In this document: in pieces, positions 5,810 to 63,800 of the stretch
Position numbering within the stretch: position 1 is the first letter of the stretch
Layout: each line of letters opens with the position of its first letter
Source of the DNA: Bacillus sp. WMMC1349
GTDB taxonomy: Bacteria > Bacillota > Bacilli > Bacillales > Bacillaceae
Reading direction: 5' to 3'
Assembly (NCBI RefSeq): GCF_013155385.1
Contig: NZ_JABJUQ010000007.1
Location: 1,904,001-1,968,000, forward strand
Length of the DNA stretch: 64,000 nt
Translations under genes and position numbers: made by a program
Notes under the pieces: model-generated
Told to the model about the DNA's origin: nothing
Databases searched by the model: none
The model's input: the letters and a program-made list of their open reading frames with translations, nothing else

Positions 5810-5843
5810 CAAATATACACTTGGAGGATTGTCGATATAACTG

Positions 5844-5960: not shown

Positions 5961-6191
5961 AGCACACCTAGACCATTTTGCCTAAGAAAGCTTTTTACAA
6001 TTTCGTTTGTGAACTGATTCCTTTTATTTGATCGTGTGACAGCAGATATATTGCGAAACAGGTTGAGCCAAAGCCGGCAATGTTGCTATCATTGTCTTCC
6101 TGCAACATTGCTTTCTTAGTGATTAATTAGTCGATTTCCAGCTAGCCACATGTATACTGGCAATCTGGTCAACGTCTGATGTATTCGCTTT
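5961..6191. other. Non-coding stretch downstream of arsC with a hairpin
   Basis: No gene is supported here. GCAATGTTGC (6077-6086) and GCAACATTGC (6102-6111) are perfect 10-bp inverted repeats ~80 bp beyond the arsC stop. They may act as the arsC terminator or as a 3' processing hairpin, although the T-tract is weak on both strands. Confidence 0.4.
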
Positions 6192-6626: not shown

Positions 6627-6644
6627 TGGTGATCGTCTCCTTTT

Positions 6645-45075: not shown

Positions 45076-45168
45076 TTTTCTCCCCATATAGGATGTTCCC
45101 CTCTACATAACTTGTCCTCTGTATACTATATAAAGGGAAGATCTACAATATACCCTCTTTTCTAACAA

Positions 45169-46275: not shown

Positions 46276-46292
46276 GTCGTTTTCCCTCCGCA

Positions 46293-47546: not shown

Positions 47547-47624
47547 AAGCTTGAAACTTCCTTCCTTTGTCCAAAGTAAACTTGAATGTCTTGATTAGAA
47601 TTTCCGCATCAAATGGTTGTTATT

Positions 47625-48632: not shown

Positions 48633-48659
48633 ATGTGCCTCCTCCTTTTGATCTAGAAG

Positions 48660-50357
48660 TCATTTTGCTTCATATAAATAGATGTTCCAGGCTGATGCAG
48701 GATGGGTAAAGCGCTTTAAAAATGTCAATCTGTTTTGTTTTGCATTTATGATAGGAACGGAAGAAAAAATATAACGCCCTCCCATTTGCTTAAATACCCC
48801 TGTATTTAACTCAAGGTTAGTAATTTTTTTCTTGGAATTTTTCTTGAATGCATAATGTTTCCCAAGTTCATTGACAAAAACATAGCAACGGCTCCCCCAT
48901 TCATCAAAATAGCGTTTTAAAGTTGGGCTTTTCTCCAGTTCTTTGGCGATTATTTTTCGAAATTGGTATTTGTATTTCAGCGGATAAATATTGGCGTAGG
49001 TATCAAGTGTATAAAAGCCGTTGTACTGGGCGATCGCAGGATGAAGACCAATACTTACCACCCTGTATGACTGTTCAGGTCGTCCGATAAATGTCTTAAT
49101 CTGTTGAAATTGTTTAGTTGCATAAAACTCTCGAAATGTAGGTGAATGATAATGAGCACCATAGGTTAGTTCTTCATGAAATGGGATGAGAACCATAATC
49201 TGAGCAATAACTACGACATAAACAAATCGTTTCCACTGCTTCGTCATCTTCCATAAAATATAACATGCCACTGCAAAGCTGACATAAATGACAAGCGGTC
49301 GTAAAAAATGAAACCGTGCAAAGTTAAATGCTGTTAAGAAACTGAATGTTTCTTTTGGTAATGCCCATAGTTTGTTAAACCACAACGCATACCAGAAAGA
49401 AAGTGCATAATTAATGAAAACTAATAATATAAACATTTTTTCTTCTCGTCGTTTTGGTCTGCCTCTTAAGATCATGATGATAAAAGTCAGTAAAATGACT
49501 GGGAGAATCACTGCGGTATGAACCGTCATCACATGATTATGACCAAAGACAAAATTTTTAACAGACAAGCGCAAAGAATGCCAAATATCATGTCTTGATG
49601 ACACAAATTCAACACGGTGCATGGTTTCCTCAGCAGCAAAGAGTGAATAAACAAGCCGATATTCTATCGCAAGGAAAATCCCTGTCATCAATGCGATACT
49701 TCCCAGAAAAGGAAGATTAACATCGCGTTTAGTGATAACATCATAAAGCCAGAGCAATGATACAGCGACAAGAAAAAAGAAAAATCCGAGAACAATACTG
49801 GCGTAAAACGGCAAAAGAGCAAGAGTAAGCCACTCTTTCCAAGAATAGTCCCGCATTCGAATATTTAAAAAAGCCCATAATGCGAGAGGATGCCCCATCG
49901 TACTCAGCATTCCTGACGGCCAAAAAGGGGTCAAAGCGAAAGCAAGCGAAACACCAATTCTAATCAAGTACGCTTTTTCATCACGAATAACATGCCGCTT
50001 CAGAAGCAAATACATTCCGATAAAAGCAAAAATACGTGTAATGGATTGGCTGATTGCATAAGCAGTCATTGAAGGAAATAAAGCATGCAGCCAGACAATC
50101 CCACTCCATTCTGTACCGAAAGCATCACGAGGAAGTCCATTCATGATCTGGGGAATGACCGCTTTAACACCTCCATGTAATTGACCGCTCTCTGCCAGTA
50201 CCTTATACCAAGCGATATTTGAGTCCAAATTATCATGAACCCGGAGATGAGCATCTTCATTTAATATGTAAACTGGCAACATGTAGATGATAATGACACT
50301 GAAAGCAATAAAAAACCAAACGTTCTCCCGGCTGATCTTATGAACCGATAGCGGCAT
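48660..50357 (-). CDS. ykoS: Large multi-TM protein YkoS (DUF6044, GT-C-like)
   Basis: A 565-residue membrane protein with about 11-13 hydrophobic helices over residues 10-400, followed by a ~160-residue extracytoplasmic domain (SYRVVSIGLHPAIAQYNGFY onward). The loop EDAHLRVHDNLDSNIAWYK near residue 35 has the acidic residues expected of GT-C transferases. In the YkoST, CsbB-YfhO and YkcBC pairs, the large protein is thought to use the lipid-linked sugar made by the small transferase. GGAGGTG is 8 nt before the ATG. Confidence 0.88.
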   Translation of the reverse strand: MPLSVHKISRENVWFFIAFSVIIIYMLPVYILNEDAHLRVHDNLDSNIAWYKVLAESGQLHGGVKAVIPQIMNGLPRDAFGTEWSGIVWLHALFPSMTAYAISQSITRIFAFIGMYLLLKRHVIRDEKAYLIRIGVSLAFALTPFWPSGMLSTMGHPLALWAFLNIRMRDYSWKEWLTLALLPFYASIVLGFFFFLVAVSLLWLYDVITKRDVNLPFLGSIALMTGIFLAIEYRLVYSLFAAEETMHRVEFVSSRHDIWHSLRLSVKNFVFGHNHVMTVHTAVILPVILLTFIIMILRGRPKRREEKMFILLVFINYALSFWYALWFNKLWALPKETFSFLTAFNFARFHFLRPLVIYVSFAVACYILWKMTKQWKRFVYVVVIAQIMVLIPFHEELTYGAHYHSPTFREFYATKQFQQIKTFIGRPEQSYRVVSIGLHPAIAQYNGFYTLDTYANIYPLKYKYQFRKIIAKELEKSPTLKRYFDEWGSRCYVFVNELGKHYAFKKNSKKKITNLELNTGVFKQMGGRYIFSSVPIINAKQNRLTFLKRFTHPASAWNIYLYEAK

Positions 50358-50510
50358 AAAAACAACACCTCCATCATTATCTATTCTGTGTGCGGGAAGA
50401 AATTGTTGGAATCATTTTAAAGATAGTATTGCTAGAGTCGTTTTGAAAAATGCATCAAAATAAAAAAAGGCATTACAGCCTTGAAATCATTTTTTAATAG
50501 CTCCTGAAGT

Positions 50511-50552
50511 GAAAAAAAAGTGCTGGTCCACTGCCGATCAGCACTTTTTTCT
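50511..50552. terminator. Bidirectional terminator after the 50.6-kb membrane gene
   Basis: AGTGCTGGTC and GATCAGCACT pair (one G-T) with a poly-A tract on one side and TTTTTT on the other, so it works on both strands. Confidence 0.85.
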
Positions 50553-50574
50553 GTGTGAGATACAAAGATGCTTA

Positions 50575-50988
50575 TCATTTCTTAATAATGATAGGCGCAA
50601 TGACCATCGTAATGAAAAGCGTAGCAAAAGAATAGTATAAAACATATTCTGATGGGACTGTACTTTGACCCTTTAACATTAAATATCCGGTAACCCCTGA
50701 AAGAATAAGATGAGAAAGTAAGAACATGAATCCCGTAAATTTAGAGTGCATTTGTTCAATTCTTTCGTCTATCAGTGGCTCTTCTTGTTTTGAACTAGGC
50801 TTTTTGAAGTATCTGTAATATAACAAGACAAGAATCGAATAAGCTGCAAAGACAGCAAAATAGAGGATGAGGTGATTGATAAAGCTACTCGTGTTCCAAA
50901 CCAGTCCGTTTATCTGTAAGTAACCAAAAAATTGACAGCCTAAAAATACTGCTGCAAACGCAGTAATTAATTCAAGTTCTTTTTTCAC
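50575..50988 (-). CDS. Small four-TM membrane protein linked to an HTH regulator
   Basis: A 137-residue protein with four hydrophobic segments (about 6-22, 34-55, 85-102, 113-130) and a charged cytoplasmic loop (KKPSSKQEEPLIDERIEQ). The start is GTG at 50988, 7 nt after GGAGGGG. It overlaps the end of an XRE-type HTH frame, the layout of HTH plus membrane-partner pairs that sense envelope conditions. I do not recognise its function. Its HTH partner appears truncated, so the unit may be decaying. Confidence 0.7.
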   Translation of the reverse strand: MKKELELITAFAAVFLGCQFFGYLQINGLVWNTSSFINHLILYFAVFAAYSILVLLYYRYFKKPSSKQEEPLIDERIEQMHSKFTGFMFLLSHLILSGVTGYLMLKGQSTVPSEYVLYYSFATLFITMVIAPIIIKK

Positions 50989-51120
50989 GGTGATCCCCCT
51001 CCGTTTCAACTAATTTGAAAAGGTCTTCTACTTTACAATCAAAAAATTTGCATAAACGTAAAGCTAATTCTAAACTTGGATTAAATTTTTGTTTTTCTAT
51101 GGCGATTAATGACTGGCGTG
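50972..51120 (-). pseudogene. XRE-family HTH regulator, N-terminal half missing
   Basis: The frame reads SRQSLIAIEKQKFNPSLELA then LRLCKFFDCKVEDLFKLVE: the recognition helix and C-terminal half of a Cro/CI-type domain, ending with its own stop (50972-50974). The first ~30 residues, with the start codon and helices 1-2, are not encoded upstream. It overlaps the GTG start of the membrane gene. Confidence 0.75.
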
Positions 51121-51283
51121 ATGGTCTATGGTGATGAATCAGCTTTTAATTCATGACCAATTAAGCAACGTGTGTTGAAGTATTTAGAATAACTTACACA
51201 CATTTTTTGAAACCCCTGTTTTTTGTGTGTGATAAAATCGTGAACAAGCAGTGCAATTTAGGTGTTATTGAGGATGAAGATGA

Positions 51284-51729
51284 TTGTTTAGTAATTTTGA
51301 TGAGTTTAGAGATCTATTATTGGCTAAAAGAGATGCGGGTAGAGTAACAGTTTCATTAAGAAATCGTACCGAAACAAATGTAGTGAAAGAAGTTAATAAC
51401 TTTGTAACTGAGCATAACTTTAAAAGCATTGATAGTTGGGACGAAATCAATGAGAGTTTTGCTAATGAAATCATTGTTCATGTTATATCTGTTGACATGG
51501 CATATGACTTTGATTTAGAAACAAAACCAATAGCAAGAGAACTTTCAGTGTACTTTTTAGATTTGTTTTCGAGCGATAAACATTTTTTACCAATTGTGAA
51601 TTCTCAGATGGTTCTGACATCTTCGTAATTAGCAGTTGGACACCTATATCAGATGCTACATTTGATGCTGGCGTTGTAATTGTTGATAAAGAGAGCATAG
51701 GGCTTCTGTGGGCTGAGGATGAAGATTAA
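51284..51729 (+). pseudogene. Acidic protein of unknown family, frameshifted
   Basis: Begins at TTG (51284) behind GAGGATG with MFSNFDEFRDLLLAKRDAGR and runs to ...LPIVNSQ. Around 51600-51608 the reading must shift to continue as DGSDIFVISSWTPISD and finish in LLWAEDED. Joined, it would be a ~148-residue acidic soluble protein, resembling in size and charge the immunity proteins of polymorphic toxin systems, but I cannot place it in a family. A real frameshift or a sequencing error would look the same. Confidence 0.55.
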
Positions 51730-52127
51730 TACTTACAGTCTCCCCTTTGGGCATTGCAGCATAAAGAACAAAAGTGGGTTTAATCGAACAGATTCATACT
51801 AACTTCTAACTGCTTGGGATATCTGTCTAAACTCAGAAAGTTTCTTTTTAGAAGCATCAACTCTGGTGGATAGGTCTTCACCAGAGTTGTAAATAGTATA
51901 GATAAAAGGAGTAAAAAAAGAAATGAACACAAAAAGAATATAATATGTTTAATCCATAGCTTTCATTCTCTTAATTAACAAAATAAAATCAATAGTAGTG
52001 TAACTTCAGAGATAACTGATATTTAAAAAGAGAAATATAAGAAGGGCGTCAAAATGTATAGACCTTTCTTATCAGCCAGGTACTGTTCTCAAAAATTTGA
52101 TCCCAATAAAAACTTAGATTTTATTAT
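51730..52127. other. Intergenic stretch with one strong hairpin
   Basis: CAACTCTGGTG (51858-51868) and CACCAGAGTTG (51879-51889) are perfect 11-bp inverted repeats with a 10-nt loop. It falls inside a small minus-strand frame ending ...LSEFRQISQAVRS that lacks a start. No other feature is supported. Confidence 0.45.
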
Positions 52128-52423
52128 TCACATCAAGTATTGAAAATTTTTTATTATCAAGGTATCGTAGCCATAAAAAAATGAAACAAATAGAAGCATT
52201 GATATGGATGCAAGTAAAAGCAGATTCATTTGAGGTAGATTAAAAAATGTCATACAATAGTTTCCAAACGGCATAGTTATTAGACCTAAAGACATTGTCA
52301 GAGATAAGATCGAGCCTGAGTATTTTTTATCAAAACTTTTTGGAACTACACTGAAAGAATTAGGTGAAAAATGACGATCTAAATTTTGATCAAAGTAGAT
52401 ACACGTGCATAACCAATAATCAT
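52128..52423 (-). pseudogene. Serine resolvase N-terminus fused to a membrane-protein fragment
   Basis: Behind a perfect AGGAGG, 6 nt away, translation starts MIIGYARVST, the catalytic N-terminus of Tn3/Hin-type serine recombinases with the nucleophilic Ser in RVST. One base is missing next; in the adjacent frame FDQNLDR continues the resolvase sequence. Homology then stops and the frame goes on into an unrelated hydrophobic fragment with two membrane segments (LTMSLGLITMPFG and NLLLLASISMLLFVSFF), ending at 52128. This is a scar of a transposon resolvase joined to other DNA. Confidence 0.75.
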
Positions 52424-52630
52424 TTGTTTCCTCCTGTACAATCATATAAATTATTGTACCAAAGATTCATTTATTGTAAGGTATTTGGGAATGTTTTTTG
52501 ATAACTATTTTTGGTAATGGTATCTTTGATGAATTTGTTTATTAAAAACATATGGGATTAAGGTTCATTAGTAATTGTACCGCCAGTATTTTTGAAAAAA
52601 ACACGTTAAGAAATATTTTCAATAAAAAAG

Positions 52631-53314
52631 CTAATTTTGTGTTATATCTATAGAAAATATTTGTTCCAATTCTTTTTTACCATTAGGAGTGACTTTGATT
52701 GCTCGTGATCTTGATACTCTTTGAATCCAATTTAATTGTAATAATTTTTCTAAAAGCGCATTTCCTAAACTGCCAGCAAGATGATGTTCTCTTTCTGTCC
52801 AATCTAAGCAAGCCTTCGCAAATATCCTTTTCTTTTGTTTGATTTCATTGACATTAATACCAAATTTGGTAAAAAATGATTGACCAGTCTTTGTTATATG
52901 AAAATGCATCTCATTTTTGATTAAGTATCCTTTATCTAGTAAGGAATTTGTAATAGCAACACCTAACTTTCCAGCTAAATGATCATAGCAGGTACGAGCA
53001 CACCCAAACTCACTTGATTGAGAAGGTTGACGAAAGGGCATGATTTTTTCTTGAGGAGTAATTACAAGAAGTGATTCGAGAATTTGTGATATTTCGGAAT
53101 TAGAAAGTCTATAATAACTATGCTTTCCATGTTTTTCTATAGAAAGAATTCCTTCCTCTTTCATTTTTGATAAATGATAGGTAGCTGTTTTGGGTTTTAT
53201 TTTGGCAACATGAGCCAGTTCGCTAGTAGGATAGGCTTTACCGTCTAACAAATAGGTTAATATTTGTGCTCTTGATTTAGAACGAATGAATAAAGCCACT
53301 TCAGAAACATTCAT
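52631..53314 (-). CDS. ArsR-family winged-helix regulator, two-domain type
   Basis: A 227-residue regulator. Residues ~5-75 are an ArsR/SmtB-like winged HTH (RAQILTYLLDGKAYPTSELA; KPKTATYHLSKMKEEGIL). The C-terminal part has two related ~60-residue winged-helix-like units (HLAGKLGVAITNSLLDKGYL and HLAGSLGNALLEKLLQLNWI), each starting with a DH/EHHLAG motif. Cysteines at FGCARTCYDH could bind a thiol-reactive ligand. The closest family I recall is B. subtilis YdfF. The decayed plus-strand gene next to it was probably its original target. Confidence 0.82.
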   Translation of the reverse strand: MNVSEVALFIRSKSRAQILTYLLDGKAYPTSELAHVAKIKPKTATYHLSKMKEEGILSIEKHGKHSYYRLSNSEISQILESLLVITPQEKIMPFRQPSQSSEFGCARTCYDHLAGKLGVAITNSLLDKGYLIKNEMHFHITKTGQSFFTKFGINVNEIKQKKRIFAKACLDWTEREHHLAGSLGNALLEKLLQLNWIQRVSRSRAIKVTPNGKKELEQIFSIDITQN

Positions 53315-53409
53315 TTTTTACCCTCCTAAAAAATATTCATATTCCTATGATAATCGAATTTTCAAAATGGTAAAATTGTTACAAGACAGTATTTTGGGGA
53401 GAAGATAAA

Positions 53410-53614
53410 ATGAAAGACTGCTAATTAAATCAAAGATATTTAAAGATTATCATCTTGATTCTTCCATATTAATTTTACCAAATGCATGGGATGTTATGAG
53501 TGTAAAAATATATAAAGACGTGAACTACTCTCCGCTTAGTTAACGTTTGATGAAGTTATATCATATGAAGAAATGATAGGATTTCTTCATAAAACTAAGC
53601 GATATTTAATGTAA
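53410..53614 (+). pseudogene. PEP mutase/isocitrate lyase-family remnant
   Basis: A frame starting after ATG plus a 1-nt shift reads IFKDYHLDSSILILPNAWDVM then SVKIYKDV, the N-terminus of phosphonomutase-like proteins (LPNAWDAISA block). After a stop and a large internal deletion, TFDEVISYEEMIGFLHKTK resembles the later FDEM...RI helix. Most of the barrel is gone. It is divergent from the ArsR-type regulator. Confidence 0.65.
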
Positions 53615-53665
53615 GCATTTATAACTGTAGTTAAATAGGATGGTATATAACACAGTTAATTAAAC

Positions 53666-53699
53666 AAAAACCGATTTATCCTTAGGTAAATCGGTTTTT
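53666..53699. terminator. Bidirectional terminator after the MFS gene
   Basis: AAAAACCGATTTA and TAAATCGGTTTTT are perfect 13-bp inverted repeats with an 8-nt loop; both strands end in a T-run. Confidence 0.9.
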
Positions 53700-53723
53700 G
53701 TTATTGAAAACTTTCTTACCACC

Positions 53724-55115
53724 TTAAGATTTGCGGTATCCTAAAAAACACAAGATATTAAAGAGTAATAATCCCCCTGCGATATACCATGAATATCGAA
53801 AGGCTTGAATAAGCCCATCTGTTCCTAAATGGCTTTGTGTACTCATGAATGTTGCGGCAACTGCAGCACCAAAGGCAATTGCAACATTTTGTAACATGCG
53901 TTGTACGGCTCCAATGGATCCTTGTTTTTCTTTTGAAACAGATGCCATGATTGAAGCAATATTTGCTGGTTGAAAAATGCCGCCTCCAATACCGTATAGA
54001 AACAATACACTAGCTAATAGATAAGGTGACCACTGTGCTTCAATAAAACTTAAGCCGACAAATGCTATAAACATAATTCCTAAACCTATGCTCATAAATA
54101 AGGTTGTTCCAAATCGTCCCATGAATTTCCCAGCTATTCTTGAGAAAATTACTAGACCAAGTGGGGCTGATAGTAAAACAAAACCTGTTTGTAAAGGAGT
54201 TAATGACGTGAAATCCTGTAAAAAATATGGAGGGACGATAAAAATAATTGCTGATGCCACCCCAAATCCTATCGTTGCAAGTATTGGAACAATAAAGGTT
54301 GACTTAAGAAATAAATGTACATCTATAATAGGATGCTTAGTGTTGGATTCATGGAATATGAAAATACCTAATAAAATAATAGAAGCGATTATATACCCCC
54401 AAGTAGGTATACTTCCCATTACTTTGTTTGCTCCATGAGATAAGCTAAAAAGAAACAACAAAGCACTTAAAGTAAAGTATATATTTCCTAACACATCAAT
54501 AGGAGCTGGATGTTTTTCCTCTTTTATAAATCGAGAAATTTTATAACAAGCCCACAACCCTATTAAACATAATGGGATGTTAATCCAAAAAATCCATCGC
54601 CAACTTCCTAAAGAAATAACAAGCCCACCTGCTGTAGGACCTAAAATTGGTCCTAAACCTATCATTACCCCTAAGGTACCTAATGCATGATTGCGATTTT
54701 CAGGACTGACAAGAGTTGTAATAAGTGCAGCAGATGTAGCCTGTAATGCAGCAGCACCAACACCCTGAATAGCACGAAATACAATTAATTGCCACATCTC
54801 TTGAGCTAATCCACATAGTATCGAGCTAATTAAAAATATGAAAAAACCATATAAACATATTCGAAAACGACCTACACGGTCACTAATTTTCCCAAATAAC
54901 AGGATAGTTGCACTCAGTGCCATAACATATATGGTAACACTCCATGCTGTTATAGTTACTGTTGAATGAAACTCTTTTTCTAAATAAGGTAGAGCAATGT
55001 TAATAATCCCTGTATCTAAAGTTGATAAGAACATCCCGATACCAGCAATCAGAATGACTAACTTTTCCCTAAAAAGAGGGAGTTTACGATTTATAACCAC
55101 ATTTGTGTTATCCAT
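53724..55115 (-). CDS. MFS exporter, DHA2 (EmrB/QacA) type
   Basis: A 463-residue transporter with about 14 hydrophobic segments. LSTLDTGIINIALPYLEKEF is the DHA2 motif D1, GKISDRVGRFRICLYG motif A, and RAIQGVGAAALQATSAALIT with GLGPILGPTAGGLVI the antiporter motif C. Such proteins export small molecules by proton antiport. Its ATG shares a base with the stop of the formyltransferase gene (TAATG), so the three genes are translationally coupled. It is the likely exporter and self-protection factor for whatever the two enzymes make. Confidence 0.9.
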   Translation of the reverse strand: MDNTNVVINRKLPLFREKLVILIAGIGMFLSTLDTGIINIALPYLEKEFHSTVTITAWSVTIYVMALSATILLFGKISDRVGRFRICLYGFFIFLISSILCGLAQEMWQLIVFRAIQGVGAAALQATSAALITTLVSPENRNHALGTLGVMIGLGPILGPTAGGLVISLGSWRWIFWINIPLCLIGLWACYKISRFIKEEKHPAPIDVLGNIYFTLSALLFLFSLSHGANKVMGSIPTWGYIIASIILLGIFIFHESNTKHPIIDVHLFLKSTFIVPILATIGFGVASAIIFIVPPYFLQDFTSLTPLQTGFVLLSAPLGLVIFSRIAGKFMGRFGTTLFMSIGLGIMFIAFVGLSFIEAQWSPYLLASVLFLYGIGGGIFQPANIASIMASVSKEKQGSIGAVQRMLQNVAIAFGAAVAATFMSTQSHLGTDGLIQAFRYSWYIAGGLLLFNILCFLGYRKS

Positions 55116-56065
55116 TAAATTGACACTACCTGTTCATTATGTGCTTGTTCATCTATTTGTGTGCTGGTTGATAAAACATCATTTATAATCATTTGTAAAT
55201 GAAGCCATCCATCTTTTGTAGAAACAAGAATTTTATTGTTATGTTCACGAAATACACCAATACTTTGAATTGGTTGAGGATATTCTGTTCTTTCAGCACT
55301 TAATATTCGGATTTTTTCATTATATTGATTAAATGCCAAAGCTCCTTGTGGATACCCAGCGCGAATAGTGCGGAGTATGGATTCTATATCCTGTTCCCAA
55401 TTTACAAAATAATCTTCTTCTTTTGGTTGACTATAATAGGTGCGATTAGATAATAACTGCAATTTTGAAGTGAAATCTTTATTTTTAATTTTTTGAAGAA
55501 CTTGTTTTAGTAAAATAATAGATTGTTTAAAATGCGTCTCTCGAATTTCTAAAGCTGTTTCAGTCCCTGACATCACAACTGGCATTTGAGCTAAAATAGG
55601 GCCAGCATCAATCTCTGGTACGACTTGGATACACGAAACGCCACCTTCTTTTTCTCCATTTTTAGCCATCCAGAAAAAAGGTGCTAATCCAGCATACCTA
55701 GGTAATGGGCTTGGATGAAAATTTATAGTATCTTCTTTGGGGATAGATAAAATATCTTCTTTTAAGATTTTTTGGTAATTAGCAATAATAAAATAGTCAG
55801 CATTATAATTTTTTAATAATTCTACTGTGTTAGAATCATTCAGTTTATGCGGTCGTAACACGGGAATGCCAATGTCCTTGGCTTCTTTTTCTAAATCAAC
55901 TTGATCAGGTTCTCCAATATAATAAGAACATAACTTTCCTTCAGGACTAGTTACAAGAGCTTCTATGGAAATAGAAGGCTCTTGTGTTAATTCCTGAAGA
56001 AACGGTAAACCAAATTTTGAATTAACTTCTGAGAATAAAATGACTTTCGTTACAGGTGGAATCAT
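55115..56065 (-). CDS. Formyltransferase-fold enzyme (Fmt/ArnA/PurN superfamily)
   Basis: A 316-residue protein. Residues ~5-190 have the formyl-tetrahydrofolate transferase fold. The catalytic triad is visible as Asn in DTINFHPSPLPRYAG, His in NFHPS and Asp in PEIDAGPI. Residues ~215-300 resemble the Fmt C-terminal barrel. It should use 10-formyl-THF to formylate an amine. It is not the housekeeping methionyl-tRNA formyltransferase, which sits with def in Bacillus; here it lies between a ThiF-like gene (4-bp ATGA overlap) and an exporter. The acceptor is probably a small amine or aminoacyl product of the operon. Confidence 0.85.
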   Translation of the reverse strand: MIPPVTKVILFSEVNSKFGLPFLQELTQEPSISIEALVTSPEGKLCSYYIGEPDQVDLEKEAKDIGIPVLRPHKLNDSNTVELLKNYNADYFIIANYQKILKEDILSIPKEDTINFHPSPLPRYAGLAPFFWMAKNGEKEGGVSCIQVVPEIDAGPILAQMPVVMSGTETALEIRETHFKQSIILLKQVLQKIKNKDFTSKLQLLSNRTYYSQPKEEDYFVNWEQDIESILRTIRAGYPQGALAFNQYNEKIRILSAERTEYPQPIQSIGVFREHNNKILVSTKDGWLHLQMIINDVLSTSTQIDEQAHNEQVVSI

Positions 56066-56958
56066 TCAGACCACCACTTACCATGAACAATTTTAGATTG
56101 CCAAGCCATAGTATCAAACATAGCGTATCCCGGTTGAACTGGTAATTGTTGAGCACCTGGCAATTGATCAAGTTCTGTAATAGCTAATGCTAATCGTTCT
56201 GCTAAAACACCTTCTGCAAGCGGTGGGCATCCAGCAAAAATGGGCATTCTCTCTAAGTCGACAAACCAATGGTCTAACATTTCTTTACTTGGATATGAAG
56301 GCATTTCAGGGATAAGGCGTTCCATAAGTCGTTTAATAACCTCTGAAGTCATTGCAGCATCTTCAGGAATATCATATACCTCTTCGATAGGCATAGAATC
56401 TTTTGTGTATTTATAAATATATGTACCATGAGCAACTGTAGGAACCTTTAACATGAATTTACAACGGTCTGATTTTCGAAAAGCACGATGTAAGGCATAT
56501 CGATTACGAATTTCGTAAAAATCCATCTGGTCTAAAACGTAATCACAATCCTTCATAAATTCTTCAGCACTTTCAGGAGTAATCCCCTCTGGATATACCT
56601 CTATGTTTACATCTTTCGTAAGATTGTAAGTCATTTCAGCAACAACTTCAGCTTTATTTTTTCCTAGATGATCCAGATCAGCACCCATTTGTCTATTCAT
56701 ATTCGTAACATCAAATGTATCTGGATCTGCAAGTTTTAGATTTCTTACTCCCATTCTAACAAGGCGTGTAGCAAGTGCTCCTCCAATACCACCAGTTCCT
56801 GCAATTCCAACAACAGCATCACGTAGTTTTTTCTGTCTTTGTACTTGTTCTTCCTCGGTGCTGCCTAACCATCCAAGGCTTCGGTTTACGCGTTCCCAAT
56901 ACATCTCGTTATCAAATGTTTCTGATTTGTACATAAGTCTTTCGTTTTGCTTTAACAT
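56062..56958 (-). CDS. ThiF/MoeB/E1-like adenylating enzyme
   Basis: A 298-residue E1-superfamily protein. The ATP-binding loop is GIAGTGGIGGALATRLVRMGV, LADPDTFDVTNMNRQ carries the Asp/Asn/Arg nucleotide ligands, GKNKAEVVAEM the Lys, and DYVLDQMDFYEIRNRYALH the metal-binding Asp. MoeB-type zinc CxxC pairs are absent; one Cys in FAGCPPLAEG could act as a thioester or reactive residue. About 45 residues precede the Rossmann core, too few for the peptide-recognition domain of MccB. It should adenylate a carboxylate. AAGGGGG is 9 nt before the ATG. It is first in the operon with formyltransferase and exporter; no ThiS/MoaD partner is nearby. Confidence 0.88.
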   Translation of the reverse strand: MLKQNERLMYKSETFDNEMYWERVNRSLGWLGSTEEEQVQRQKKLRDAVVGIAGTGGIGGALATRLVRMGVRNLKLADPDTFDVTNMNRQMGADLDHLGKNKAEVVAEMTYNLTKDVNIEVYPEGITPESAEEFMKDCDYVLDQMDFYEIRNRYALHRAFRKSDRCKFMLKVPTVAHGTYIYKYTKDSMPIEEVYDIPEDAAMTSEVIKRLMERLIPEMPSYPSKEMLDHWFVDLERMPIFAGCPPLAEGVLAERLALAITELDQLPGAQQLPVQPGYAMFDTMAWQSKIVHGKWWSE

Positions 56959-57027
56959 AATAAATTTCCCCCTTAAGTGTTTTTACTTTCAATGTAATGA
57001 TAAAATAAAATTATCTTAATAATCTAT

Positions 57028-57049
57028 CGATTTCGTTTTTATCAAATCG
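57028..57049. promoter_or_regulatory. Candidate operator between regulator and ThiF operon
   Basis: CGATTT (57028-57033) and AAATCG (57044-57049) form an inverted repeat with a 10-bp spacer in the 111-bp divergent intergenic region. It is the only clear dyad there, close to the regulator's GGAGAG site. Confidence 0.45.
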
Positions 57050-57069
57050 TTTAAGGAGAGAGCATTAAT

Positions 57070-58176
57070 ATGGGAATTGAAATTATATTTCCTCCGTATA
57101 TAGCAAATAATAAGGAAACGCTGTTACAACGCATTCAATTTTCTTTTTCACCTTTGAATGAAATGTTTCGAAGCATGCATGTATTAAACAATCCAAAACA
57201 TCATGGGATTCACTTACCATGGGTTATTGAAGCTAAAAAAAACTTAACAAATGATATGCAAAAGGACCTACAATATTTTAACCTATGCTTTGAATTAGGA
57301 GTTCCACCCACACTTCTTCCTGGAATCTACAAATCTGTGTTTTCAATTGAAGAAGAGATAGAATTACTTGCTCAAAAATTAACTGTTAATAATGCTCGTA
57401 AAATTCTTCATGAATTAACACTTATATCTGAACATAGGGAAAATCGATTTATACCTAGTTTAGCTAAAGGAATTGAATGGACAGATTTTGCTTTCAGTGA
57501 CAAAAGTGACATACTTGAAGATTTAAAGAGAAGACCAAACTTTGTTTTCTGTAGGTTACTTCATTTCTTAACAGACTATTATCAAAAAATTTTTTCAACA
57601 ATATGGGAAGATTTGAAGTGTGAATTATTAAATGAAATTGTGGAGCAAACTACCTTGCTCAAAACAAAAGGATTTTCAGCATTTATTGCTTCCTTATCCT
57701 CAGAGCGCATTTCTTGGATCGATAATAAAAATAAATTGTATCTTCACAAACCATTTAAAACAATTTATCAGATGAAAAGTGATGAATCTATTATTTTTAT
57801 GCTTAGTTATTTTGTTTGGCCACATTTTTTTGTAGACGAAATAAAAGAGGGGATTGTTATTGTTTATGATTCTTCAGTAGCAAGAGAACAGGCATTCCCA
57901 GAGCAACCGATTGAAAAAATGGTAGATATTTACAGAGCTTTAGGGGAGCCTTCTAGACTGCAAATTTTGAGGATATTACAGGAACGTTCACTAACCACAC
58001 AATCCTTGGCACAAATTTGTCATTTGAGTGAGGGTTCGGTTTCTAGGCATCTTCAAGTACTAAAAAAAGCAAAATTAGTTACCAGTAAAAAAGATGGAAA
58101 ATATGTATTATATAAAAGTCAAAAAAATATTATACAAATTCTTTCAAAGTTAGTTATGGAAGCTACAGTAACTTAA
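57070..58176 (+). CDS. Large regulator with C-terminal ArsR-type winged helix
   Basis: A 368-residue protein. The N-terminal ~270 residues (MGIEIIFPPYIANNKETLLQ; HVLNNPKHHGIHLPWV) form an all-alpha-rich domain like the uncharacterised DUF5937-type sensor region. Residues ~280-365 are an ArsR winged helix (YRALGEPSRLQILRIL; SEGSVSRHLQVLKKAKLV; GKYVLYKSQKN). No metal-site cysteines are found in the HTH, so the ligand is likely an organic molecule bound by the N-terminal domain. It is divergent from the ThiF operon with 111 bp between, so it probably controls that operon in response to its product or substrate. Confidence 0.82.
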   Translation: MGIEIIFPPYIANNKETLLQRIQFSFSPLNEMFRSMHVLNNPKHHGIHLPWVIEAKKNLTNDMQKDLQYFNLCFELGVPPTLLPGIYKSVFSIEEEIELLAQKLTVNNARKILHELTLISEHRENRFIPSLAKGIEWTDFAFSDKSDILEDLKRRPNFVFCRLLHFLTDYYQKIFSTIWEDLKCELLNEIVEQTTLLKTKGFSAFIASLSSERISWIDNKNKLYLHKPFKTIYQMKSDESIIFMLSYFVWPHFFVDEIKEGIVIVYDSSVAREQAFPEQPIEKMVDIYRALGEPSRLQILRILQERSLTTQSLAQICHLSEGSVSRHLQVLKKAKLVTSKKDGKYVLYKSQKNIIQILSKLVMEATVT

Positions 58177-58269
58177 TACATCACAATTTTTGCCCCAAAA
58201 TACATCATATGCAAAGGGTAATGTGGAATTGAAAACAAGAGAGTTTCTTACCGCAGAACAAAGGGTGGT

Positions 58270-58424
58270 ATGTCAACATCGAAGTGGTTCAAGTATGTGA
58301 TTAAAGATAGTGGTATTGATGTCATTACTATGAGTTCGGTATCTTTTCAGAATTATGTAATCATCTTCGTTTTGGAGACATGTGGGTCGTAGAAGATCAT
58401 CTACTTGGAGGCTTCAGCTCCTAA
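58270..58424 (+). pseudogene. Tn3-family transposase (TnpA) fragment
   Basis: Two frames join to a piece of Tn3-type TnpA: TSKWFKYVIKDSGID, then a +1 shift near 58321 into HYYEFGIFSELCNHLRFGDM and WVVEDHLLGGFSS, matching the conserved YELCxLSELRxALRSGDIWV block of that family. A stop (58422-58424) ends it; the rest of the ~980-residue enzyme is absent. Nothing else is recognisable between 58177 and 58495. With the resolvase scar at 52.4 kb it suggests that the DNA in between arrived on a Tn3-like element. Confidence 0.75.
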
Positions 58425-58495
58425 ATGATGCTTTGGCTTCCTAAACCACAAAAAGTATGGTATGTTTTTATAAAAATACAAAGGTGTGAATAAAA

Positions 58496-58789
58496 ATGAA
58501 AAAATGGGTTTGGTTCCTCATCGGTTTAGTTTCGTTAGCCCTGACCTTAATTGTTTCAATTTTCGCACAAAACTACAATCTGATCATTAAGGTTTCTGGA
58601 ACAATTGGCGTCATTTCCATTCTCATCTCCGGAATCTTTTTAGGAGCCTTTGTCAATGGTGACAAACAACGCGCTAATTATTTTTCGGAAACAAAAGAGC
58701 ATAGAAAGACACGGACAATCATCTCAATAAACATACTACTTGTGGGATTACCCCATATTTTTGCTAGCATCATTTTTCTTATTATGTAA
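58496..58789 (+). CDS. DUF5316 small membrane protein
   Basis: A 97-residue protein with three hydrophobic segments (about 4-22, 28-52, 75-96) and a polar loop (NGDKQRANYFSETKEHRKTR) typical of DUF5316. AAAGGTG precedes the ATG by ~8 nt, and a good terminator follows. Function unknown. Confidence 0.75.
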   Translation: MKKWVWFLIGLVSLALTLIVSIFAQNYNLIIKVSGTIGVISILISGIFLGAFVNGDKQRANYFSETKEHRKTRTIISINILLVGLPHIFASIIFLIM

Positions 58790-58796
58790 ATACCTT

Positions 58797-58827
58797 AAAC
58801 TTGTAGATTTTTCTGCAAGTTTTTTTA
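58797..58827 (+). terminator. Terminator of the DUF5316 gene
   Basis: AAACTTG and CAAGTTT pair around a 12-nt loop, followed by a T-run. Confidence 0.8.
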
Positions 58828-59003
58828 TTTTATAAAGACAATCTTCTGATGTGAATTTGTTTTGACATACAACACGCAGAAAACATAGGCAGGAATACGG
58901 CGTGTTATGCGTAATCATGCTCACTTCAATATTTTTCTTGTTTCTTAACAAACAAGTCCGTTCTAGACAGTGTTATTCGTTAAGAAATCTACTTTGTTCT
59001 GAG

Positions 59004-59037
59004 ATAAAATAAGACTGTCGCAATTTCCGACAGTCTT
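59004..59037 (-). terminator. Terminator of the Pro/Tyr-rich gene
   Basis: AAGACTGTCG and CGACAGTCTT form a perfect 10-bp stem on the minus strand, followed by ATTTTATCT. Confidence 0.8.
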
Positions 59038-59050
59038 AGGCTCTGCTTGT

Positions 59051-59245
59051 TTACCACGGATAGAACGGATAGAATGGAGAAAAAAATGGAGAATAGTAGT
59101 ATGGATAAGGATAAAATGGCGGTCGTGGACGCGGTCTAGGGCGTGGTCTTGGACGAGGATAAGGATATGGATAAGAATAATAGGGTTGCTGTTGCTGCCG
59201 AAAGTTTTCCATCCCTTCATAGCCATGTTCAAACATTTGCTCCAT
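59051..59245 (-). CDS. Small Pro/Tyr/Arg-rich low-complexity protein (spore-coat-like)
   Basis: A 64-residue protein: an N-terminal MEQMFEHGYEGMENFRQQQQ, then PYP repeats, a (PR)n run of about six units, and a C-terminal tract of PYPYYYSPFF/PFYP. AAGGAGG is ~8 nt before the ATG and the gene has its own terminator. Composition is like small Tyr- and Pro-rich coat or crust proteins that become cross-linked. A CATAGCCTA sequence (about 59274-59282 on the minus strand) fits the sigma-K -10 form CATAnnnTA, though no well-spaced -35 AC is clear. A spore role is an inference. The near-perfect hexanucleotide repeat makes length variation likely. Confidence 0.7.
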   Translation of the reverse strand: MEQMFEHGYEGMENFRQQQQPYYSYPYPYPRPRPRPRPRPRPPFYPYPYYYSPFFSPFYPFYPW

Positions 59246-59322
59246 TATAAGTACCTCCTTTTTCTTTATCGAATACTTTAGGCTATGCTAAACTCACAAA
59301 AAAAGAGTACGTACAAATCAAA

Positions 59323-59354
59323 TAAAAAACAGTCTGACTTTTGTAGCCAGACTG
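59323..59354 (-). terminator. Terminator of gltAB
   Basis: CAGTCTG and CAGACTG pair around an 11-nt loop on the minus strand, followed by TTTTTTA. Confidence 0.85.
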
Positions 59355-59381
59355 ATGTATTTATTTTAAACCCCTCTGTTT

Positions 59382-60863
59382 TTAAGGTAATACAGAACTC
59401 CCCATCAAATATTTGTCTACTTCACGCGCCACTTCTCGTCCTTCATGGATGGCCCAAACGATTAAACTTTGGCCTTTTCTTGCGTCACCTGCAGCAAATA
59501 CGCCTTCGACATTTGTTTTGAAATCCCCATATTTTGCGTCAACTTTGTTTCTGACTGTGTTTATGCCGAACTGTTTTAATAACGGTTGTTCTGTCCCTTC
59601 AAAGCCGATTGCGATAAACACGAATTGAGCTGGCCAGATTTTCTCTGTTCCTGGAATTTCATGAAATTCAAGTTCCCCTTGCTCGTTTTTCACTTTTTCC
59701 ATTTGAACAGTGTGTAATTCTCTTAAATTACCGTTGTTATCAGAAACCAGTTTTTTTGTTTGAATGCAATACTTCCTTGGATCGCTTCCAAATTTCGCTT
59801 TCGCTTCTTCATAAGCATAATCAAGCGTATAGATATGCGGCTGTTCTGGCCACATATTTTCAGCAGTTCTTGTATCAGGTAGTTTTGGATGTTTACCGAA
59901 CTGGACGACGCTTCGTGCTTTTTGGCGCAAAGCGGTTGCAACACAGTCTGCCCCGGTGTCTCCGCCCCCGATCACAATCACGTCTTTGTTTCTCGTATTC
60001 ATAAATTTCTTATCTTTAAAATTGGAATCGAGCATACTCTTGATTGTGCCAGTTAAATAATCCATCGCAAAGTGAACACCGTTTGCTTCACGGCCCTCTA
60101 TTAAGAGGTCACGTTGTTTTTGCGCACCTGTACATAAAATGATAGCATCATATTGTTCTTTCAATTCAGCGGCAGTTATGTCTTTACCGATTTCAGTATT
60201 GATAACAAAATCAATGCCTTCTTGTGTTAACAATTTGATTCGGCGTTCAACAATGCTTTTTTCAAGTTTCATGTTTGGAATTCCGTACATCAGCAGACCA
60301 CCCGGGCGGTCTGCTCTTTCATATACAGTTACAGAATGTCCTGCCTGATTCAGTTGATCTGCACTTGCCAAGCCGGCTGGACCAGAGCCGACAATTGCAA
60401 TTTTCTTGCCAGTCCGTTTTTTAGGAATTCGCGGCTTAATCCAGCCATTTTCAAAACCTTTGTCAATAATTGTCCGCTCGATGCTTTTAATCGAAACAGC
60501 CGGATCTGAAATCGCCACTGTACATGACCCTTCACAAGGCGCTGGACAAACGCGTGAGGTAAATTCGGGAAAGTTGTTTGTTTTCAGGAGCCGCTCAAGT
60601 GCTTCTTTCCATCTTCCCCGATAGACAAGATCATTCCATTCCGGAATCAGGTTATAAATCGGACAACCTGATGTATAGCCCTTTATATCCATTCCGATTT
60701 GGCAAAAAGGTGTCCCGCAATCCATACAGCGTGCACCTTGCCGTTTTGCTGCCTCTTCAGAAAATGGCGATGAATATTCATTCCAGTCTTGAATCCGTGT
60801 GAGAGGATCTCGTTCAGCCGGCTTTTCCCGCTTGAATTCGATAAATCCTGTTGCTTTGCCCAT
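59382..60863 (-). CDS. gltB: Glutamate synthase small subunit
   Basis: A 493-residue NADPH-dependent reductase subunit, the length I recall for B. subtilis GltB. The N-terminal cysteines CMDCGTPFC, GCPIYN and CPAPCEGSC bind two [4Fe-4S] clusters; VGSGPAGLASADQLNQAG binds FAD, VIGGGDTGADCVATA binds NADPH, and GVFAAGDARKGQSLIVWAI is the C-terminal FAD motif. It passes electrons from NADPH to GltA for glutamine plus 2-oxoglutarate to two glutamates. It lies 17 bp after gltA. Confidence 0.97.
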   Translation of the reverse strand: MGKATGFIEFKREKPAERDPLTRIQDWNEYSSPFSEEAAKRQGARCMDCGTPFCQIGMDIKGYTSGCPIYNLIPEWNDLVYRGRWKEALERLLKTNNFPEFTSRVCPAPCEGSCTVAISDPAVSIKSIERTIIDKGFENGWIKPRIPKKRTGKKIAIVGSGPAGLASADQLNQAGHSVTVYERADRPGGLLMYGIPNMKLEKSIVERRIKLLTQEGIDFVINTEIGKDITAAELKEQYDAIILCTGAQKQRDLLIEGREANGVHFAMDYLTGTIKSMLDSNFKDKKFMNTRNKDVIVIGGGDTGADCVATALRQKARSVVQFGKHPKLPDTRTAENMWPEQPHIYTLDYAYEEAKAKFGSDPRKYCIQTKKLVSDNNGNLRELHTVQMEKVKNEQGELEFHEIPGTEKIWPAQFVFIAIGFEGTEQPLLKQFGINTVRNKVDAKYGDFKTNVEGVFAAGDARKGQSLIVWAIHEGREVAREVDKYLMGSSVLP

Positions 60864-60880
60864 GTTCCCCTCCCCCTTTC

Positions 60881-63800
60881 TTACTGTACCACTGCTTCTT
60901 TTGCAGAGGCAGCATGAGTTGGAATCTTTTGCTTTGTACCAGCTTCAAAAGCATACATCATCGCTTCTTCATCCGTTAAACCAGCTTCTTTTTGTTCTTT
61001 TATCCGCTTCATCATTTGTTTGAAATCTTTCGGAATCACTTTCACAAATTGAGTCACAGTTTGTTCCCAATCATTTAGCAGTGATGCTGCCTTTTCACTT
61101 TGTGTGTAATGATAATGTTGTTGAATCATTTCTTTCAGTTCTGCAATTTCTTCTGAATCCAGAAGCGTTTCAAACTCAATCATTTCCTGATTGCATTTCC
61201 GTTTAAAAGCTTTTTGGTCTTCAGCAAAAATGTAGGCGATTCCACCTGACATACCTGCTCCGAAATTTTTTCCGATATCTCCCAAAATAACAACACGTCC
61301 GCCTGTCATGTATTCACATCCATGATCTCCAATGCCCTCAACCACAACATTTACTCCACTGTTTCGGACAGCAAACCTTTCTCCAGCAAGTCCGTTTATA
61401 TAAGCTTCACCACTTGTTGCACCGTAAAACGCAACATTTCCGATGATGACATTTTCACGGAAAGCAGGATTGAAATGATCCGGTGCTTTGACAGCGATTT
61501 TTCCACCTGATAAACCTTTTCCAACATAGTCATTGGCATCCCCTGTTAAATAAAGTGACATACCTTTAGGTACAAATGCTCCAAAGCTTTGACCTGCTGA
61601 GCCTGTGAAGTGCAGTTTGATCGTATCATCAGGTAGACCTTTTTCCCCATAGCGTTTCGAAATTTCGCTTCCGGTCACCGCCCCTGTAACGCGGTTTGTA
61701 TTCTGAATTGTAAATGATGCTTCTGACGGAATTCCGTCCATTATTGAGCTTTTAACCGCAGGTAAAATTTCTGTCATATCAAGTGATTCAGAAATTTTAT
61801 GATTTTGCGGTGTCCGGAATGTACGCGTGCCTTTTGGTTGGTAGAGCAAGTTTGCTAAATCTAATTGCCCCGCTTTCCAATGTGCTTTAGTACGTTCACT
61901 GATATGAAGGACATCTGTGCGACCTACCATTTCATCAATCGTTTTGAATCCTAGACGCGCCATCAATTCGCGCGCTTCTTGAGCGATAAAACGCATATAA
62001 TTGACGAGGTGATCTGGATCTCCCTTGAATTTTTTGCGAAGTTCCGGGTTTTGCGTTGCAACTCCGACAGGGCAAGTATCTAAATGGCAAGCCCTCATCA
62101 TGACACAGCCGAGAACTACGAGCGGCGCTGTGGCAAAACCAAATTCTTCTGCTCCTAATAATGCAGCCATGACAACATCTCTGCCTGTCATTAATTTTCC
62201 ATCTGTTTCTAATACTACACGATCGCGCAAACCGTTTAACATTAATGTTTGGTGTGCTTCAGCCAAGCCAAGTTCCCACGGAAGTCCGGTATGTTTAATA
62301 CTTGTCTTTGGAGACGCTCCGGTTCCACCGTCATATCCGCTGATGACGATCACATCTGCTGTTGCTTTTGCGACACCGGCAGCAATTGTACCAACACCGG
62401 CTTTGGCAACGAGTTTGACACTGATCCGTGCATCACGGTTGGCATTTTTCAAATCATGGATGAGCTGTGCCAAGTCTTCAATCGAGTAAATATCATGGTG
62501 TGGCGGTGGTGAAATCAAACCGACACCAGGCGTTGATCCCCTGACATTGGCAACCCATGGGTAAACTTTGTTTCCTGGGAGCTGACCGCCTTCCCCAGGT
62601 TTTGCCCCTTGAGCCATTTTAATTTGTAACTCATCGGCATTGACAAGATAGTGGCTTTTTACACCGAAACGACCTGAGGCAATTTGCTTAATGGCACTGC
62701 GGCGATGATCGCCATTGGCATCAGGGGTAAAACGATCTGGATCTTCCCCGCCTTCCCCACTGTTGCTTTTTCCGCCTAAACGGTTCATCGCAATCGCCAA
62801 TGTCTCATGTGCTTCTTTGCTTAGAGAACCAAATGACATTGCTCCTGTTTTAAAACGGCGAACAATGGATTCAACAGATTCAACTTCTTCAAGCGGCACT
62901 GGTTTTCGTGTTTCATCAAATGAGAAAAGGTTGCGTAAAAAACCGATTCTTTCTTCATCTGCCGCTTGTGAATACTGTTTGAATAGATGATAATCGCCAT
63001 TTCGACAAGCCCATTGTAACGTGTGAATCGTTTTTGGATTAAAAGCATGATGTTCGCCGTCTTTTCTCCATTGGAAATCACTTCCTGAATCAAGAGTTGT
63101 ACTGTAAGTGTCAGCATAAGCTTTTTGATGGCGAACAACGGCTTCTTTTGCAATCGTGTCTAAATCGATGCCGCCAAGTTGTGATGCCGTTCCAGTAAAG
63201 TATTGATCAATCACATCTTGGTTGATGCCAACCGCTTCAAAAATTTGTGCACCACGGTAACTCTGCACAGTCGATATTCCCATTTTAGACATTACCTTGA
63301 CGACACCTTCAGTGACACTCTTGCTGTACTTTGTGACAGCTTCTTCATAGCTAAATGGAAGAATGCCTTCGTCGATGATATGTTTAAAAGTCGCATATGT
63401 GAGATACGGATGAATAGCATCAGCTCCATAGCCGATCAATGCTGCAAAATGGTGGACTTCCCTAGCTTCACCTGATTGGGAAATGATACTGACTTTCGTC
63501 CGTTTACCAGTTCGAACTAAATATTGATGCAATGCACTTACTGCAAGGAGTGATGGAATCGGTGTTTTTTGTTCATCCATTTTGCGATCTGATAGGATGA
63601 GAAGTGTCACACCTTCTGCAATTGCCTTATCCGCTTCTTTAAACATATCTTCAAGACCGCTTTTTAAGTCTCCTGTAAATAGCGTATGAATCGTTTTATT
63701 TTTAAAGTGCTGGTGGACAAGTCCTCTAAGCGAGTTAAACTGAGCATTTGTTAATACTGGTGTATACAGTTTAATCCGACGGCAACTGCTTTCATTTGGA

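Follow-up and report, generated by a model that had tools for sequence, protein, structure and literature searches.

An E1-like enzyme encoded beside exchangeable amine-capping enzymes in a mobile cassette carried by Bacillus sp. WMMC1349

Pantocin A synthetase (PaaA), an enzyme of E1 fold, dehydrates and cyclises its substrate, which is a peptide. Peptide tailoring is also the role of natural-product E1-like enzymes in the available text of a 2025 review of ThiF-like enzymes, which covers four classes of ribosomally synthesised and post-translationally modified peptides (RiPPs) and in which the word carbamoyl was not found (PMC12250964). For TcdA-type enzymes, the accessible part of another paper proposes adenylation of the carboxylate of threonylcarbamoyl-A followed by intramolecular attack to give a hydantoin, once thought to be an oxazolone (PMC13139853). 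Here we describe a locus of Bacillus sp. WMMC1349 in which a ThiF-like enzyme is encoded with a formyltransferase, a major facilitator superfamily (MFS) exporter and a divergent regulator. It lies in a 64,000-nucleotide stretch of assembly GCF_013155385.1 (contig NZ_JABJUQ010000007.1, positions 1,904,001 to 1,968,000), hereafter the window. The four genes form a dedicated mobile cassette of a kind more general than its formyl type, the formyl group being one of several caps. With a probability of roughly 0.45, we read the cassette as a mobile, self-contained, peptide-free pathway of E1 type for one exported small molecule. We found no published description of this gene set in the open-licence literature, an absence that is provisional.

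The original prediction, made from the letters of the window, had placed four open reading frames (ORFs) here, with overlaps of 1 to 4 bp and a facing regulator that ends in an ArsR helix, and both the ORF listing and Pfam agree with it (Table 1). The three-gene operon reads toward lower coordinates and has a strong hairpin at its end. Its ThiF and formyltransferase genes overlap by 4 bp, its formyltransferase and MFS genes by 1 bp, and 111 bp separate the ThiF gene from that of the divergent regulator.

Table 1. Features of the cassette and its surroundings, in window coordinates.
Feature	Coordinates	Strand	Basis
ThiF/E1-like adenylyltransferase, 298 aa, operon gene 1	56062..56958	-	Pfam ThiF 1.5e-32
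Formyltransferase, 316 aa, operon gene 2	55115..56065	-	Pfam Formyl_trans_N 4.4e-23 and Formyl_trans_C 1.9e-9
MFS exporter, DHA2/EmrB-like, 463 aa, operon gene 3	53724..55115	-	Pfam MFS_1 5.2e-53
Divergent regulator, 368 aa: DUF5937 domain, C-terminal ArsR-type winged helix	57070..58176	+	Pfam DUF5937 1e-18, HTH_5 6.9e-10
Acquired segment of ~7.7 kb, flanked by genes conserved in congeners	50740..58441		Alignment ends versus G013
Candidate operator CGATTT-N10-AAATCG, between regulator and ThiF genes	57028..57049		Palindrome, motif counts
Terminator-like hairpin 3' of exporter gene; 16-bp perfect arms, 8-nt loop	53663..53702	-	Inverted repeat I13
Second ArsR-type regulator, 227 aa	52631..53314	-	HTH_5 6.5e-7
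Remnant of PEP-mutase/isocitrate-lyase-like gene, 44 codons kept	53409..53540	+	PEP_mutase E 8.2e-4, below Pfam cut-off
Scrap: resolvase gene start and its upstream DNA	52372..52517	-	75-89% to plasmid recombinase loci among the matches listed
Tn3-family transposase scrap	58320..58421	+	48% over 23 aa to intact Tn3 TnpA (L070)

That the locus is a dedicated cassette for activation, amine capping and export was supported by the linkage of its homologues. A uniform tblastn table held 52 loci with a ThiF relative, namely the window and L006 to L056 (the genome scan gave 44 loci); outside the 52 stand L057 (a 29% scan match without ThiF by tblastn), L001 (the window again) and L002 and L003 (ThiF relatives from the same genome). 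The loci are non-independent, with L009/L015, L022/L055, L010/L024/L056 and the Pseudomonas set being close relatives. Homologues do not occur mostly apart: a formyltransferase adjoins ThiF in 18 of the 52, and in a further 27 a different capping enzyme is encoded no more than 1.5 kb downstream (a carbamoyltransferase in 15, an N-acyltransferase in 12), giving 45 in all. Formylation as the defining step, which the original prediction had included, did not stand, because formyl is one option among the caps.

The spacing of these genes is tight. The capping gene comes directly next in 37 loci and one gene further in 8 (L020 and seven from Pseudomonas). In the 18 formyl-type loci, the ThiF and formyltransferase matches are separated by -80 to +21 bp, with a further piece at 203 in the broken L054, and carbamoyltransferase matches lie -6 to +113 bp away in 14 of 15, that of L020 standing at 1500 bp, after the MFS gene. 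GNAT N-acyltransferases are 49-86 bp from ThiF in five loci and 1243-1304 bp away in the seven from Pseudomonas, where they follow an MFS-type gene wherever such a gene is called. Among plasmid records, all three with a cassette-type formyltransferase (E<=1e-25) also hold ThiF. On Staphylococcus plasmids an aspartate-carbamoyltransferase-like enzyme takes the place of the formyltransferase; it is present in 14 of 14 Staphylococcus records with ThiF, and a fifteenth record, from S. capitis, retains a shortened carbamoyltransferase and only 57 codons of ThiF.

The ThiF-like enzyme also appears to have evolved with its partner. A ThiF tree was built from 46 of the 52 loci, leaving out L037, L047 and L051 (uncalled genes) and L052, L054 and L056 (broken or partial). 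ThiFs partnered by a formyltransferase fall into a single clade (support 100/99) with members from Bacillota, Actinomycetota and Pseudomonadota. Partner labels need five changes on this tree (minimum 4) against a shuffled mean of 24.5, and none of 200 shuffles came as low, in a comparison that tests clustering only and that near-copies favour. Once near-duplicates were removed, distances among ThiFs followed those among their partners, with r=0.84 for formyltransferases (12 loci) and 0.91 for carbamoyltransferases (13 loci), values reached in 0 of 2000 permutations. Formyl- and carbamoyl-partnered enzymes (11 and 10 rows) are separated by 22 ThiF positions, 18 of which lie in residues 144-257, past the nucleotide-binding half (for example Q/K at 144, M/C at 238 and E/Q at 249). 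Because of this partner-specific covariation, we infer that ThiF handles the capped compound; the cap would probably be added first and the adenylate formed second.

A structure prediction gave an AlphaFold2 model of the ThiF-like protein with an E1 fold over nearly its whole length (predicted local distance difference test [pLDDT] 94.3, predicted template-modelling score [pTM] 0.92). Foldseek ranked PaaA (5ff5) best at E 3.7e-16, with a TMt of 0.82 for ThiF; the top matches were PaaA, ThiF, SUMO E1, AclA, MoeB and MccB, all at 15-19% identity. MccB had been named as the nearest analogy, and it does stand among the fold matches, but PaaA, ThiF and AclA come ahead of it. Against solved sequences, a 32-row profile placed TcdA first (6.1e-21), then UBA7, PaaA, E1s, MccB and ThiF. 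The alignment to TcdA (4d7a) spans the GxGGxG, NxNRQ and GxxK segments, and G54, G56, G59, N86, R89, Q90, K102 and D143 are invariant across the 32 rows. The predicted E1 Rossmann core starts at about residue 49 and is preceded by one short strand and two helices, so that the model leaves no room for a RiPP recognition element (RRE) or other leader-binding domain N-terminal to the core. The N-terminal recognition part of PaaA is absent from the cassette enzyme. The lack of an RRE had been noted from the sequence, and by eye no precursor ORF of at least 8 aa is shared among nine leader regions.

Nor does the enzyme look like a housekeeping paralogue. MoeB and ThiF carry two CxxC zinc motifs; the window ThiF has none, and 2 of the 32 rows have one each. 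Its NCBIfam scores (77.8 bits for TIGR02356, cut-off 275; 46.7 for TIGR02355, cut-off 377) lie below the thiF and moeB cut-offs, that for the TcdA model is 56.3 bits (cut-off 304), and two MoeB/ThiF-type proteins with CxxC motifs visible by eye are encoded elsewhere in the source genome. We therefore rejected a redundant MoeB/ThiF, which by the original prediction would have spoken against a dedicated cassette. The genome's best paralogue of the cassette ThiF (L002) we take, unproved, to be TcdA from its length and a neighbour taken for aspS; no NCBIfam model reached 1e-60 for it. An E1-E2 anti-phage (CBASS-like) system was likewise set aside: only a generic E1 domain matched, and the formyltransferase and exporter had no PADLOC match. 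No E2 or JAB partner matched among eight proteins scanned with Pfam. As for a nearby ThiS/MoaD partner of the kind that MoeB and ThiF serve, no ORF of at least 60 aa in 48000-62000 ends in Gly-Gly by eye, family models having been run on only some of these.

The capping enzymes were examined in the same way. The cassette formyltransferase scores 140.4-140.9 bits against the fmt model, below the cut-off of 201.5, while the genome's own Fmt, encoded elsewhere, scores 402.9 bits, which removes a redundant Fmt from consideration. Its nearest solved relatives are ArnA and Fmt, and N115, H117 and D153, presumably the formyltransferase catalytic triad, are invariant in 13 rows. The formyltransferases of L010, L023 and L055 have 219-220 aa and no C-terminal domain, which argues against a tRNA substrate. 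An alignment of 14 cassette carbamoyltransferases (without L047, and ignoring the 25-residue scrap own_L062) showed that they keep the carbamoyl-phosphate motifs S-T/S-R-T, HPxQ and the R of GDxxxCR. In aspartate carbamoyltransferase, R-x-Q and a Lys of the 80s loop bind aspartate. R-x-Q occurs in 0 of the 14, and the genome's own PyrB has RIQ and QKGES; the 80s-loop Lys is found at the aligned place in 0 of the 14, L034 having one nearby. Aspartate is unlikely as acceptor, because the cassette enzymes are without PyrB's R-x-Q. An extra aspartate/ornithine-carbamoyltransferase paralogue (L060, G000:C7:1882927-1883826), about 20 kb before the window, reaches 169.6 bits with the PyrB model, below its cut-off.

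In the pathway that we propose, the formyltransferase would move a formyl group from 10-formyl-tetrahydrofolate, the donor known for this family, to the amino group of an amino-acid-like metabolite made by the host. The ThiF-like enzyme, whose fold and ATP-site residues are seen, would adenylate the carboxylate of the capped compound, and the adenylate could then serve for ring closure to an azlactone-, hydantoin-, lactone- or lactam-type product. Ring closure is its most likely fate, because no carrier protein or peptide is seen, and it has parallels in TcdA, acting on an N-carbamoyl amino acid, and in PaaA, acting on a peptide. The cap appears swappable, with a carbamoyltransferase in sister lineages and a GNAT N-acyltransferase in more distant ones. 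Five-membered rings are classically made from N-formyl, N-carbamoyl and N-acyl amino acids alike, which would explain how one enzyme lineage tolerates three caps. The MFS protein would export the product and protect the producer, and the DUF5937-ArsR protein may act on both divergent promoters by way of CGATTT-N10-AAATCG, perhaps in response to the product.

The best NCBIfam model for the exporter is the EmrB/DHA2 subfamily (203.8 bits, 4.4e-60, under the cut-off of 230.2), a family with 14 transmembrane helices. The regulator is 39% identical over 354 columns to the regulator at the same position in the L. plantarum locus L008. Besides the candidate operator, the window, in which 0.01 occurrences would be expected, has a CGATTT-N10-AAATCG copy at 53672-53693, inside the hairpin; that copy may be coincidental. 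The motif occurs at three places genome-wide, two of them in the cassette, and the sole copy outside it lies at G000:C7:2413793-2413814. L008 and L009 have similar but different palindromes in the interval between regulator and ThiF.

Several cassettes are broken in an informative way. The ThiF match of L052 (L. oris) is confined to residues 18-123, with no formyltransferase match left, and the same ThiF fragment recurs in Lactobacillaceae plasmid records H20-H22; ThiF and capping genes are both cut in L056 (Corynebacterium KPL1814), as are ThiF and carbamoyltransferase in L095 (S. capitis plasmid pJOS_01). In L052, L056 and L095 alike, the MFS and regulator genes are still full-length. That the enzymes are lost while exporter and regulator persist is as expected if the exporter gives immunity to a toxic product; the evidence thus leans towards a product harmful to its maker, and these three are perhaps immune non-producers.

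The cassette lies in a larger, acquired segment. Window positions 45001-50739 align at 94% and positions 58442-58791 at 91% to G013, the closest congener found (GltD 99% identical), in which the two flanks stand 67 bp apart; the ends of this alignment define the limits of the insertion. The spot is variable, as G013 has ~3.7 kb of other DNA between its equivalents of 58791 and 58980, and the segment is also absent from two more distant congeners. The cassette ThiF was found in 1 of 44 genomes of the genus and 1 of 398 sampled from the phylum, each time the source genome, and a screen of 199 relatives at 1e-30 returned the source genome and two weak members (31-35%) that belong to another lineage. 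G+C is 0.342 over 53724-58176, compared with 0.389 for the window outside 51000-59300. Contamination of the genome record is put at 5.56%; the cassette lies inside a 4.0-Mb contig with conserved flanks and is therefore not a stray contig.

The Tn3-type scars said to flank the block are real but tiny. In comparison with L068, the resolvase scrap takes in roughly 53 bp from the gene start plus 95 bp of upstream DNA. The transposase scrap matched at E 2e-5 in a nine-sequence database (the L070 TnpA is a congener's), and Pfam gave no match for it. An inverted repeat flanking the cassette, GTATTTTGGGG (I22), was unconvincing, being short enough to arise by chance in an AT-rich 8-kb stretch. Elsewhere, the cassette is spread over three phyla, on plasmids of Lactobacillus, Corynebacterium and Staphylococcus epidermidis and in Streptomyces and Pseudomonas chromosomes. 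A plasmid search recovered the identical gene order in L. plantarum, L. gastricus and C. tuberculostearicum, and on 8.5-kb plasmids the cassette is the main cargo, accompanied by replication, mobilisation and two hypothetical genes. Phage cargo was rejected: among 50,697 phage records none had a relative covering 80% of the query, and of 103 pattern matches in viral contigs none was confirmed.

Other genes of the segment are less clearly part of the cassette. The product of the second ArsR gene is 34% identical over 219 columns to the regulator of an S. epidermidis plasmid cassette, and related DNA (73%) adjoins other genes in Priestia, for which reason this gene may be foreign to the cassette; it may be a separate acquisition. 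The phosphoenolpyruvate (PEP)-mutase remnant shows 31% identity over 39 aa to a gene that is intact in L014, where it lies downstream of that for the MFS protein. Beside gltD, a 64-aa ORF (59051-59245, minus strand) encodes a run of Pro-Arg/Pro-Tyr repeats, its DNA being partly conserved in two congeners.

Larger versions of the cassette look biosynthetic. The gammaproteobacterial loci L014 and L020 encode haem-oxygenase-like proteins and MATE exporters; Pseudomonas loci have a haem-oxygenase-like protein that clusters with those of L014/L020, an EctB-type transaminase, a FeeM-like acyltransferase and an MFS protein; and Streptomyces-type loci hold AMP-ligase, RidA-like, PGA_cap, methyltransferase and GlcD-like or lyase genes. 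Upstream of ThiF in L014, a haem-oxygenase-like domain is fused to a cupin (4075-5349), with a relative upstream of ThiF in L020 (5719-6696), both in metagenome-assembled genomes; SznF has a haem-oxygenase-like plus cupin architecture. The gene adjoining the L014 fusion encodes a 523-aa protein (5352-6923) that matched no Pfam or NCBIfam family at the thresholds used. FeeM/GNAT-type N-acyltransferases stand beside ThiF in L037 and L039-L044 (Pseudomonas) and in L013, L049 and L051 (rhizobia), and EctB-type transaminases occur in L013, L039-L044 and L049. A different partner set is seen in L012 (Salmonella plasmid) and L038 (Gilliamella), whose ThiF relatives (41-42%) are followed by leucine-carboxyl-methyltransferase-like and PEP-mutase-like genes. 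A small protein directly precedes ThiF in three alphaproteobacterial loci (L035:6531-6983, SET-domain-like by Pfam; L036:6519-6971; L045:1229-1615).

A number of observations weigh against the pathway as we propose it. Its substrate, product and activity are putative, and the order of capping before activation rests on covariation. Agreement between the trees could also arise from joint transfer without a shared substrate; the carbamoyl-partnered rows are not one group (three changes), and the N-acyl rows need two. TcdA is not special by fold, yeast Tcd ranking only 47th and E. coli TcdA falling outside the best 50 matches, and ring closure is therefore a choice among E1 chemistries; a 7-row ThiF profile, moreover, put UBA7 first among solved sequences. 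C138 of ThiF is nearly invariant and could be catalytic. These queries found no capping gene in 7 of the 52 loci (L006, L007, L012, L033, L038, L052 and L053), L012 having an annotated GNAT just upstream of ThiF. No MFS relative turned up in 4 of the 18 loci of formyl type, among them L022, which is at a contig end, or in 5 of the 15 of carbamoyl type, three of these last having an EamA-type gene instead. The exact CGATTT-N10-AAATCG recurs in one other cassette only, L016, in the same interval. Finally, plain benefit from efflux would equally leave exporter and regulator behind in broken cassettes.

The last point belongs to the main rival, detoxification or resistance, which we consider unlikely. 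Here the regulator would sense a toxic amine, the transferase would cap it, ThiF would modify its carboxylate and the MFS protein would expel it. ArsR-type control, a drug-efflux-type exporter and small mobilisable plasmids suit resistance cargo, minimal three- to four-gene versions have no dedicated gene for substrate supply, and broken cassettes with exporter and regulator would still be useful for efflux. Capping alone would inactivate the amine, however, and on these terms it is difficult to account for another enzyme that presumably spends ATP and follows the type of cap. The larger versions also encode biosynthetic enzymes, namely the haem-oxygenase-like proteins, EctB-type transaminase, AMP-ligase, methyltransferase and GlcD-like oxidase.

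Less likely again is a microcin-C-like route, in which the nucleotide is left on a capped amino acid or free peptide to give a Trojan-horse inhibitor, the cap protecting the producer. Microcin C is exported by an MFS protein, and MccB matches the cassette ThiF by sequence (1.5e-17) and by fold (3.6e-13); the N-formyl group matters for MccB according to the available text of the review (PMC12250964). Set against this, PaaA, ThiF and AclA match at least as well and an RRE has no room. Inspection by eye of the nine leader regions revealed no shared precursor ORF of at least 8 aa (a 7-aa gene would escape), and the window cassette is without a peptidase or acetyltransferase immunity gene.

A RiPP pathway whose precursor peptide is distant or unusual seems to us quite improbable. 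The natural-product E1-like enzymes in the available part of the same review, which its title restricts to RiPPs, do make RiPPs (PMC12250964), but the three operon genes leave no gaps between them, the model has no RRE-sized N-terminal domain, and of the nine leader regions six hold ORFs of at least 8 aa with no resemblance by eye and three hold none. A chance neighbourhood of housekeeping-type paralogues (a second Fmt beside a MoeB/ThiF) fits the broad family names only, and is scarcely credible given a gene order kept across phyla, the partner-specific ThiF tree, a genuine Fmt and two MoeB/ThiF-type copies elsewhere, and scores below the fmt, thiF and moeB cut-offs.

If the peptide-free pathway is right, its two-enzyme form with exchangeable amine caps would be among the smallest biosynthetic cassettes known, and the formyl/carbamoyl swap beside the same enzyme offers a built-in experiment on substrate recognition. 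As S. epidermidis, C. tuberculostearicum and lactobacilli, commensals of the human skin and gut, carry it on plasmids, it may influence how such bacteria compete or signal. More tentatively, we speculate that such cassettes represent a minimal product class, neither ribosomal nor made by non-ribosomal peptide synthetases, in which E1-like enzymes activate and cyclise single amino acids that bear an N-cap. An exchangeable neighbour gene would determine whether this cap is formyl, carbamoyl or long-chain acyl, and the class would travel as cargo of plasmids and transposons, from commensals of the skin and gut as far as actinomycetes of the soil and Pseudomonas associated with plants. The Pseudomonas and rhizobial loci are a possible N-acyl-diaminobutyrate lactam pathway, relying on the FeeM-like acyltransferase and EctB-type transaminase; its products, if real, would be the lactam counterpart of acyl-homoserine lactones.

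Each known system shares some of these features. PaaA has the E1 fold and is the best Foldseek match, but its substrate is a ribosomal peptide and identity is 17-19%. Microcin C clusters likewise combine a ThiF-like enzyme (MccB), an exporter and an N-formyl group; the cassette, in contrast, has no heptapeptide gene that we could see and has its own formyl enzyme, replaceable by a carbamoyl or acyl one. The PNP-1 cluster of Pantoea, in the available text of its description, pairs a formyltransferase-core protein with a carbamoyltransferase and a transporter and is antimicrobial; its carbamoyltransferase is of NodU/CmcH type, not aspartate-carbamoyltransferase type, and the words ThiF, MoeB and adenyl- are absent from that text (PMC4010436). 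AclA of Tenacibaculum discolor (9egb), likened here by match and entry title, is an E1-like 265-aa chain with a solved substrate complex (sequence 3.5e-14, fold 4.8e-14). TcdA/CsdL, the tRNA threonylcarbamoyladenosine dehydratase, differs in acting on tRNA and in a sequence match that ends near residue 145, but like the cassette enzyme it is E1-like and works without a carrier protein, and it is the best solved sequence match of the 32-row profile.

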